Part shown: piece by piece, positions 15,308 to 46,046 of the stretch
Layout of the letters: the number at the start of each line of letters is the position of its first letter
Numbering within the stretch: the first letter of the stretch is position 1
Assembly: GCA_015485155.1 (NCBI GenBank)
Contig: WFUF01000008.1
Span: 1-64,000, forward strand
Reading direction: 5' to 3'
DNA: 64,000 nt
Origin: Robiginitomaculum sp.
GTDB lineage: Bacteria > Pseudomonadota > Alphaproteobacteria > Caulobacterales > Maricaulaceae
Notes under the pieces: generated by a model
Databases searched by the model: none
What the model was told of the DNA's origin: nothing
What the model saw: only the letters and a program-made list of their open reading frames with translations
Made by a program: the position numbers and the translations under genes

Positions 15308-15346
15308 AAAAAAACGCCGCCTTACAAAGTAAAAGCAGCGTTTTTG
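15308..15346 (-). terminator. Intrinsic terminator between rpmF and eno
   Basis: AAAAACGCCGC (15310-15320) and GCAGCGTTTTT (15335-15345) form an 11-pair stem with one wobble/mismatch, closing a 14-base loop. On the minus strand a run of seven T follows. It is placed 20 bases after the rpmF stop; because the stem is A/T-flanked on both sides it could act bidirectionally. Confidence 0.7.
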
Positions 15347-15366: not shown

Positions 15367-15549
15367 CTAGTCTTCCTGTGCTGGCAAAATTTGTCTGCCA
15401 CGATACATGCCGGTTTTCAGGTCAATATGGTGGGGACGGCGCAACTCGCCAGAATCGGCATCCTCAATATAGGTAGCCGCAGCCAGACGATCATGGCTAC
15501 GGCGCATTCCTCGACGGGAGCGGGTGATTTTACTTTTAGGTACTGCCAT
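15367..15549 (-). CDS. rpmF: 50S ribosomal protein L32
   Basis: 60 aa structural protein of the large ribosomal subunit. Starts [20 protein letters not shown], the conserved L32 N-terminus, and ends with [16 protein letters not shown]. It lacks the CxxC zinc motif of some L32 paralogues, which is normal for alphaproteobacteria. AGGA lies 11 bases before the ATG. Monocistronic by appearance, with a terminator directly behind it. Confidence 0.95.
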
Positions 15550-15710
15550 GGGAAAAATCCTGATTGGTAAAACTGATCAAAAATGAAAGACAGCAATAAA
15601 TTACTGATTAAGAGCGGGCAGATACCCTATCTTGCCCGTATCGGCAAGAGCAAATGCGACATTTTGACAAAGGGGGTGCAATCAGATCAATTTTGTGCTA
15701 TACAATGATC

Positions 15711-15799
15711 TCGGTCGTCCCCTTCTGACGCACGATCGCAAACGACTAGATATATGCTATATGAGGGTCGTAGCGGTTCAGACAGGACGACCGTTTTTT
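15711..15799 (+). ncRNA. Candidate rod-shaped structured small RNA
   Basis: About 89 nt on the plus strand. A perfect nine-pair outer stem CGGTCGTCC (15712-15720) / GGACGACCG (15785-15793) is followed at once by six T, an intrinsic terminator. Inside it nest TCTGA (15724-15728)/TCAGA (15778-15782), ACGAC (15742-15746)/GTCGT (15767-15771) and ATATA (15750-15754)/TATAT (15758-15762), giving one long interrupted hairpin. A -10-like TATACAAT lies at 15699-15706, about seven bases before the outer stem; no good -35 at the right spacing was found. It does not carry the SRP RNA tetraloop motif and is too short for 6S RNA. Family not recognised; it could also be a long terminator-like hairpin. Confidence 0.6.
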
Positions 15800-15827
15800 A
15801 TGCAAACTCCTCTTTGCCGGAAATACA

Positions 15828-15854
15828 AATACGGCCACCATTGGTGGCCGTATT
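15828..15854 (-). terminator. Perfect 12-pair hairpin behind hppA
   Basis: AATACGGCCACC (15828-15839) pairs with GGTGGCCGTATT (15843-15854) around a three-base loop. It sits 27 bases after the hppA stop on the minus strand. The following T content is modest (ATTTGTATTT), so it is a plausible but not textbook terminator. Confidence 0.6.
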
Positions 15855-15880
15855 CATAACATTGCCCTTTGAAAGCTTGT

Positions 15881-43191: not shown

Positions 43192-44745
43192 CTACTCCCA
43201 CTCAATGGTTCCTGGTGGTTTTGAGGTTATGTCATAGACCACGCGGTTAATGCCGCGTACTTCGTTGATAATTCTGGTGGCGGTACGTCCCAAAAAGTCA
43301 TGGGGAAACGGGAAATAGTCGGCGGTCATGCCATCGGTCGAAGTCACAGCACGCAAAGCCAATACCTTATCGTATGTGCGCTCATCGCCCATTACACCAA
43401 CGGTGCGAACCGGCAGTAAAACGCTAAACGCCTGCCAGATGTCGTCATAAAGCCCGGCTTTACGGATCTCATCGAGATAAATAGCATCGGCCTTTTGCAA
43501 AAGAGCCACAGCCTCGGCCGTGATCTCGCCGGGAATACGGATCGCCAGACCCGGCCCCGGAAACGGGTGACGACCCACAAAACTTTCCGGCAGGCCAAGT
43601 TCACGCCCCAACTCGCGTACTTCGTCTTTGAACAGCTCGCGCAATGGCTCGACCAGTTTCATATTCATGCGTTCTGGCAGACCGCCAACATTGTGGTGGC
43701 TTTTGATGGTCACCGACGGCCCGCCATCAAAACTGACACTTTCAATCACATCAGGATACAAGGTTCCTTGCGCTAAAAAGTCCGCGCCACCTAGTTTTTT
43801 GGCCTCAAGCTCGAACACATCAATAAACAGGCTTCCAATGATTTTGCGTTTTCTTTCCGGATCACTAACCCCGGATAATTTGCCCAAAAACAAATCACCG
43901 GCATCAACTGCAATTAGCGGGATATTATAATGATCGCGGAACAGGCTTACCACTTGCTTTGTTTCGCCAGAGCGCATCAGGCCAGTATCCACATAAACAC
44001 AGGTTAATTGATCGCCGATCGCTTCGTGTAATAATACCGCCACTACCGAGCTATCGACCCCGCCGGAAAGCCCACAAATCACCCGTCCCTCACCCACTTG
44101 CGCCCGTATTTTGGCAATCATTTCGCCGCGAAACGCCGCCATTGTCCAATCCCCGGACAGGCCGGCAATATTTTTGACAAAATTGCTCAAAATTCTTGCA
44201 CCAGATGGGGTGTGTACCACTTCGGGGTGGAATTGTACGCCATAAAACTGACGTGTTTCATCCGCAATAGCAGCAAATGGCGCATTGGCAGAACTGGCAA
44301 TAGCCACAAAGCCATCCGGTAAGGCATCGACCTTATCACCATGGCTCATCCACACAGTTTCGATTTTTTGCAAACCCTCAAACAATGGACTTGCCGCAAT
44401 AGTCTCAATCTCTGCCCGGCCAAATTCGCGTTCCGCAGAAGCACTGACCGAACCGCCTAATTGCGCGCACATGGTTTGCTCGCCATAACAAATACCAAGC
44501 ACCGGAACGCCCAGTGAAAACAAACAATCATCAGCCCGTGGGCTATCGTCCCAATGTACCGAATTGGGGCCACCAGAAAGGATAATCGCTTTGGCAGCAA
44601 ATTGCTCGGCAAACGCTGCATCAACCTTATTGTATGGATGCACTTCGCAATAAACACCCATCTCGCGCAAGCGCCGGGCTATCAGTTGCGTAACCTGAGA
44701 ACCAAAATCGACAATCAGAACCTGTTGGTGAATTTTTGTCATCAT
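43192..44745 (-). CDS. guaA: GMP synthase (glutamine-hydrolysing)
   Basis: XMP plus glutamine and ATP to GMP. 517 aa. Class I glutaminase: [15 protein letters not shown] (nucleophile Cys) and [12 protein letters not shown] (His, Glu). ATP pyrophosphatase P-loop [10 protein letters not shown], then the dimerisation domain with [13 protein letters not shown]-terminus [12 protein letters not shown] is canonical. Start overlaps the rsmB-like stop (ATGA); strong GGAGGG ribosome binding site. Third gene of guaB / rsmB-like / guaA. Confidence 0.97.
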
Positions 44746-46046
44746 TCCCTCCGCAGTGCTGCCATGTAAAACCCGTCAGTGTCGGCACTGTGTGGTGACA
44801 TTCGCAAATCACCCGATGCGGTCAAACATTTTTCCAGCATCAACAGGCCTGCCGGGTTTAACAAGCCGCCTAGTTTGGCAATTTCGCCTATGGACACCCG
44901 TGTGAACTCATTGTGTTCAGCCAAAAACCCGTCCACCTGATCTTCGTTTTCTTCTGCTAACAAGGAACAGGTCACATAGAACATCATGCCGCCGGATCGG
45001 GCAAACGGAGCTGCCTGGCGCAATACTTGAGCCTGCTCATTCATTCGCACCTGCAATTGCCCCTCACGCAGCCGCCATTTGGCATCAGGGTGCCTGCGCC
45101 AAGTACCCGTACCAGTACACGGCGCATCAATCAGCACCGCATGCATTTTGCCAGTTAAATCACCCAGAGGATCATCGTCACGGGGATCACGAACCTGTAC
45201 ATTTCGCACACCGGCGCGTTTCAACCTGGCATGGATAGGCACTAATCTGCGACCATCACGATCATAGGCAAATACCTGCCCCTTGTTTTGCATTTGCTGC
45301 GCCAGTGCCAGAGTTTTGCCACCACCCCCAGCACAATAGTCCAGAACTTGCGAACCGCCCCCAATACCGGTGCAAAGCGTGACAAATTGCGAACCGGCGT
45401 CCTGCACTTCCAGCCAGCCTTTGGCAAAGCCGGGCAAGGACTGCACATGGCCAGAGCGCGTATCGGCGCTTGGCGCAGGTATTCGCGCCGCAGTCGGCAG
45501 CCACTCAAGCCCTTGCCCACCGATTTTGCTCACCGCCTTTAAGCTATCAATTGCGGGGCGTTTTAACTCGTTCAGCCGTAAATCAACGGGTGCGCGGGTG
45601 TTCATGCCTTTTGCCTCTGCCACAACACGCTCAGCAAACGCCCGCTCGAAATTCGGCCATAACCATTTGGGAACATTGGCTTGCACATATTCCGGTTCAT
45701 CGGAAATATCCGATTGTAACCCGGACTTTTCCTCTTGGGTTAATGGCTCCGGTGCGTGTTCACTTTGGGTAAAGTCAGTATCAATCTTTTCTGCCGCACG
45801 CTCCCAAACCCGACCCAGAGTTCCGATAACCAGCGATCTGGGACTATCCGATCCCATTGCCGCTGCAATTGCTGATTTATGGCGCAACGCGTCCAAAACC
45901 AATCCCGACACATAAGCCCGATCCCGTGCCCCGGCATAACGCGCCGCCCGCCCCCATGCTTTCAAGGCGATTTTGGCCGGGCGTTTGGCATCAACCATGT
46001 CGGTAAGTACCGCAATAGCTGCGGCGGCTTTGGCTCCATCTTGCAT
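44742..46046 (-). CDS. RsmB/NOP-family rRNA cytosine-C5 methyltransferase
   Basis: 434 aa. N-terminal NusB-like helical region (about 1-150) and a Rossmann SAM-dependent methyltransferase domain with [17 protein letters not shown] (motif I), [18 protein letters not shown] (motif IV, catalytic thiol chain) and [17 protein letters not shown] (motif VI, second Cys). Both catalytic cysteines are present. E. coli RsmB modifies C967 of 16S rRNA; this alphaproteobacterial relative probably has a similar target. Between guaB and guaA on the minus strand. Confidence 0.9.

Follow-up and report, generated by a model that had tools for sequence, protein, structure and literature searches.

A candidate rod-shaped small RNA gene, conserved beside rpmF in the genus Robiginitomaculum

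The window, that is, the whole stretch of 64,000 nucleotides of Robiginitomaculum sp. DNA analysed here, carries on its minus strand the rpmF gene (15367-15549), which encodes ribosomal protein L32 (Pfam PF01783), and, divergent from it on the plus strand, a rod-shaped element of about 88 nt (15712-15799) that ends in its own terminator and that its fold, its homologues and the covariance models R1 and R2 designate as a probable sRNA gene. The rpmF ATG lies 162 nt from this element. A perfect 12-pair hairpin, AATACGGCCACC/GGTGGCCGTATT, is found at 15828-15854 past the hppA stop codon, the minus strand being T-rich thereafter; this hairpin is probably the hppA terminator and separate from the sRNA. 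Another terminator-like hairpin with a T tail is located on the minus strand at 15310-15345, between rpmF and eno.

The original prediction described four nested stems followed by six T, and this arrangement was indeed found, the element being delimited at 15712-15799. The outer stem, P1, has nine pairs and joins 15712-15720 to 15785-15793; P2 has five pairs and joins TCTGA (15724-15728) to TCAGA (15778-15782), and the inner stems comprise 5 and 6 pairs. The 3' arm of P1 runs without a gap into six T (15794-15799), a tail that completes an intrinsic terminator, as judged from the window sequence and the T tails of relatives. The minimum free energy of the 15690-15810 region was -36.1 kcal/mol compared with a mean of -26.65 for shuffled sequences (z -2.86), 1 of 200 shuffles being equally good. 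Folding evidence by itself thus exceeds chance only moderately, and the earlier claim that such a nest is unlikely to form by chance finds its decisive support in the comparison of 18 genomes described below rather than in the single-sequence fold. Since the folding z of the minus strand was identical to that of the plus strand, the strand cannot be told from folding alone. The strand indicators are the position of the promoter, the T tail and G-U usage, and all three favour the plus strand: in the alignment, the P1 core and P2 contain 8 T-G cells, no A-C cell and one T-T, and this excess of T-G over A-C points to the plus strand as the one transcribed.

A putative promoter precedes the rod. 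The -10-like box that had been proposed just before the 5' end appears to be an extended -10 element (TTTTGTGCTATACA, 15691-15704), recognized by the spacing of TG.TA to the first stem and by a T run, with a -35-like element GTGCAA (15676-15681) located 17 nt ahead of it. TG.TA was found 12-15 nt ahead of the first stem in all 18 copies, and the T run ahead of it was kept in 14, 16, 16 and 18 of them. The GTGCA columns, exact in the window and separated from the -10 by the 17-nt spacer, were kept in 16, 17, 18, 17 and 16 of the 18 copies. It should be noted that the last TG.TA within 110 nt served as the anchor of the upstream alignment, which makes its four letters invariant by construction; this is not the case for the TG.TA-stem distance and the GTGCA columns. 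A scan of the window alone with the promoter pattern recovered the element at 0 mismatches and one further site at 3, where chance would give 0.94. Generic scans for sigma-70 promoters and for terminators made no plus-strand call at the element, the former because the -35 is not TTGACA-like and the latter because the stretch enclosed by the outer stem is longer than the short loop permitted by the scan. An activator may act at the unusual -35. Transcription is expected to start about 7 nt past a -10 element, and the predicted start accordingly lies no more than about 3 nt from the first stem of the rod. By conservation, the element has its own predicted promoter at a fixed distance from its 5' end; at its 3' end, it has an intrinsic terminator formed by the outermost stem and a T tail, the tails being T-rich in most copies and less uniform in L013, L015, L022, L023 and L027.

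Regarding the distribution of the element, a DNA search detected it in 10 of 61 genomes (its own included), all within the genus. A first covariance model, built from these 10 copies, retrieved it in all 18 genomes of the genus, the eight copies absent from the model being recovered at E 4.8e-14 to 4.4e-4; further matches in the genus up to E 1 were weak, short or antisense. Searched across the family, it was present in 18 of 137 genomes at E<=0.01, with one match each, and these were the same 18 genomes, none of the other 119 giving a match at this threshold. A second model, built from the 18 copies, was searched against 398 genomes of the order and matched 8, namely seven members of the genus and G271 (E 0.0115). 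The G271 match was rejected as a homologue, as it sits in an open frame, by eye that of an adenylate-cyclase-type gene. The family- and order-wide searches used stricter filters, so that weak divergent copies could escape them. The exact core pattern had 25 matches among named genomes, 16 of them in MAGs named 'Robiginitomaculum sp.' and 9 in others. In seven of these nine the model matched nothing at the core up to E 10, and in the other two it gave a weak match (L057, E 0.49, partial; L048, E 0.59). As all nine are covered by open frames of 112 to 764 codons, they were taken for chance occurrences in coding DNA and rejected as homologues outside the genus. The exact core pattern had no match in the viral collection IMG/VR. 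Outside the genus, rpmF was located in 33 genomes, and a covariance search at 12 of these loci yielded nothing better than E 0.14. Judged from these searches, the element looks like a gain in this genus, with loss elsewhere as the alternative.

Mean pairwise identity among the copies was 0.74 within the element (shuffled 0.514), 0.634 in the 40 nt upstream (shuffled 0.531), 0.636 over 90 nt of the rpmF spacer (shuffled 0.546) and 0.538 downstream (shuffled 0.535). In P1 and P2, 92.9% of the cells are paired, and 9 of the 14 pairs are invariant. Four pairs are changed on both sides, a count reached by 23 of 500 shuffles, as are 9 cells, reached by 4 of 500, and the covariation score was matched by 21 of 500, these shuffles ignoring the relatedness of the copies. 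Of these four, pair 1-125 is unpaired in 6 of 17 distinct rows and pair 9-117 in 10. The numbers of additional pair types showed no excess over shuffles for P1/P2 or for either of the two inner folds (options A and B, below). On the rpmF tree, which is weakly resolved, pair 4-122 needs at least 6 changes and is paired in all 18 copies, and pair 7-119 needs 3, pair 24-99 2 and pair 34-99 4, so that few independent events support the inner helices. The comparison of relatives that the original prediction had called for thus reveals a conserved structure with compensatory changes. The interval in which it was to be made, rpmF-hppA, holds on its rpmF side in 18 of 18 genomes and on its hppA side in 2 of 18.

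The inner part of the rod contains a highly conserved 20-nt core, TCTGACGCRCRAYCGCAAAC (15724-15743), kept in 17 of the 18 copies according to the alignment and the exact pattern scan, L029 being the one that departs; it is a candidate strand for binding a target or a protein. The conserved strand bears a segment that is partly repeated in direct orientation (ACGATC...ACGACT in the window), and either repeat copy can pair with one and the same 3' strand (15766-15777), which results in two mutually exclusive folds in the alignment. In option A, 15729-15737 pairs with 15766-15775; in option B, whose 5' arms span 15735-15747, 15735-15739 pairs with 15773-15777 and 15742-15747 with 15766-15771. 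For cells paired, cells changed on both sides and covariation score, option B was equalled by 0 of 500 shuffles on each measure and option A by 6, 32 and 27, so that covariation in the alignment is stronger for B, with shuffles that again ignore relatedness. RNAalifold, run on the first ten copies, chose option A. The minimum free energy structures of single copies were B in 8, B-like in 2, A in 2, A-like in 5 and another fold in L029, which fits both inner options poorly. When each option was imposed, the energies of A and B differed by no more than 2.2 kcal/mol in 12 of the 18 copies, the gap being at most 0.7 kcal/mol in six (L013, L015, L018, L021, L023 and L027) and 1.2 to 2.2 kcal/mol in six more (L012, L014, L016, L017, L019 and L020). 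Option A was better by 4.7 kcal/mol in L022; in L024, L025, L026 and L028, strict A was worse by about 4 kcal/mol, yet a bulged A-like fold was the minimum free energy structure. When the six bases of the window copy that are unpaired in B were swapped for every hexamer, an equally small gap was obtained with 84 of 4096, the median gap being 7.9 kcal/mol. This rarity would fit selected bistability, though the same picture would arise from a repeat maintained for some other reason. The rod is highly paired; the AA of GCAAAC is the only part of the core that is about 97-98% unpaired on average.

To compare the element with known RNAs, the whole window was searched with Rfam 15 at gathering thresholds, and the 15550-15880 interval at E <=10. 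At gathering scores the window contained two tRNAs alone, both on the minus strand at 549-771, and no family matched the element. At E <=10 the interval gave three sub-threshold matches, of which the sole plus-strand one was MicA (17.7 bits for a gathering score of 41, 15782-15854), which shares with the rod no more than its final 18 nt. SRP RNA (RF00169) of this genome lies on another contig (G000:C2:82833-82930, 62.1 bits), as does a 6S-like match (RF00013; G000:C19:52156-52314) that remains below its cut-off (42.4 bits for 46.4). With no RF00169 or RF00013 match at the element and these matches elsewhere, identity with SRP RNA or 6S RNA was rejected, in line with the earlier remark that the sequence lacks the signatures of SRP, 6S and tmRNA. 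Caulobacter belongs to the same order as Robiginitomaculum. Literature searches returned nothing on this element, and the text of PMC5988900 does not mention rpmF. In related bacteria, RusT and ChvR are lineage-limited sRNAs that act by base pairing, with and without Hfq, according to PMC11005374 and PMC6237742. As described there, RusT of Caulobacter crescentus has 118 nt and several stem-loops and lies between lolA and xth; like the element, it is an intergenic RNA of comparable size that close relatives retain at a single locus, it ends in a Rho-independent terminator, and it has a conserved internal segment, which in RusT is taken as the seed (PMC11005374). By description, its several stem-loops set it apart from a single 88-nt rod beside rpmF. 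C. crescentus ChvR, located upstream of recF/gyrB, is also a lineage-specific sRNA and pairs through two stem-loops offering two separate pairing segments (PMC6237742), whereas in the element, again as far as descriptions allow comparison, repeat copies compete for one partner strand.

The occurrence of the rod in all 18 genomes of the genus, with promoter-like elements at a fixed distance, is the decisive evidence on which the original observation was accepted, and the absence of an Rfam match together with the compensatory changes supports its reading as a candidate new small RNA. That the element is an RNA gene is highly likely, and it is very probably a real sRNA gene absent from Rfam 15; the promoter geometry, the rod, the terminator, the conserved strand and the lack of a conserved frame constitute the support drawn from sequence. 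From these we infer transcription, action in trans, base pairing and a role of Hfq. The explanation that we favour, with some confidence, is a free-standing sRNA of about 88 nt with its own promoter and terminator that acts by base pairing. Transcription would be initiated from the extended -10 and the GTGCA at -35, no further than about 3 nt from the first stem; the RNA would fold as a rod whose outermost stem and T tail form its own intrinsic terminator; one repeat copy would pair with the 3' strand, so that the other copy stays exposed, as does the AA of GCAAAC; and the exposed conserved strand would pair in trans with one or a few mRNAs, perhaps with the assistance of Hfq, the alternative folds setting which repeat copy is free. 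An hfq gene is present in the genome, and a ProQ gene was looked for and not found. The core-complement pattern alone disclosed no convincing target in the element's own genome: the single near-complement of the 20-nt core, at 45790-45809 on the minus strand, has 3 mismatches and lies within a long ORF (44742-46046, minus strand; by eye resembling an RNA methyltransferase), not at its start, and was rejected as too weak. A reversed control pattern had no match in the genome. A conserved bistable switch, in which two copies of a short segment compete for one strand and two folds of similar energy expose different faces of the RNA, is a tentative and rather unlikely extension; a ligand, a protein or a target mRNA would then select the fold, and the free-standing sRNA would change its own seed.

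Three other explanations were weighed against this base-pairing sRNA. Instead of being an RNA of its own, the element could serve a neighbouring gene as leader, attenuator or terminator, and its terminator and its position beside rpmF would be compatible with this: rpmF is upstream on the opposite strand in all 18 genomes, and its start codon lies 151-172 nt from the element in 17 of them and 250 nt in one, a constancy of the divergent spacer (15550-15711 in the window) that hints at a regulatory region shared by rpmF and the sRNA. The promoter and the terminator, however, face away from rpmF, and G-U usage favours the plus strand. On the other side, the first long ORF, read by eye, is codirectional with the RNA in 10 of 18 genomes but convergent in 8, which makes a leader for a single downstream gene unlikely. 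Moreover, the eight downstream proteins submitted to Pfam belong to different families (histidine kinase, penicillin amidase, RDD, H+-pyrophosphatase, CTP synthase, DUF819, ABC transporter and Usp), the remaining ten having been grouped with them by eye. A leader or terminator of hppA was ruled out, as this gene follows the element in only 2 of 18 genomes and is convergent there. Such a cis-acting element is improbable on this evidence. Still less credible is a chance hairpin, a stretch of conserved DNA that is not transcribed, or a portion of a small coding region, even though the single-sequence z is just -2.86. Two frames stay open across 14 and 13 of the 18 copies and longer ORFs cross the element in some relatives, where they are read as chance. 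No frame, however, is open in all 18 copies (14, 13 and 0 on the plus strand; 2, 9 and 9 on the minus strand), the lengths of the copies differ by non-multiples of three and so break the frame, and no ORF of at least 8 codons starts and stops inside the element. The lack of a conserved reading frame is what would be expected of an sRNA, and conservation in 18 of 18 genomes, compensatory changes and fixed promoter geometry speak against chance.

More serious, if still doubtful, is the possibility that the RNA is structural and binds a protein, which the rod and the conserved strand would titrate or recruit, instead of being an antisense regulator. Conserved bases in the inner part of a rod are an arrangement familiar from SRP and 6S RNAs, and conservation extends over much of the core, at paired and unpaired positions alike. 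The bacterial small SRP RNA has a conserved internal region, as the element does, and is a rod of similar length (97 model positions in RF00169); 6S RNA is likewise an interrupted rod, but its model (RF00013) has 187 positions and the element about half of that. Against this reading, an SRP RNA and a 6S-like RNA are present elsewhere in the genome, so that neither role looks vacant, and the search for partners, which covered Hfq and ProQ alone, provided no candidate protein.

Taken together, these results would define a new RNA family with an alignment and covariance models, in a genus of marine bacteria in which every named member found here is a MAG. Should both folds be real, the RNA would be a natural example of an sRNA choosing between two copies of its seed. 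The stable site beside rpmF, combined with changing downstream neighbours, would make it a clean case of lineage-specific sRNA gain.
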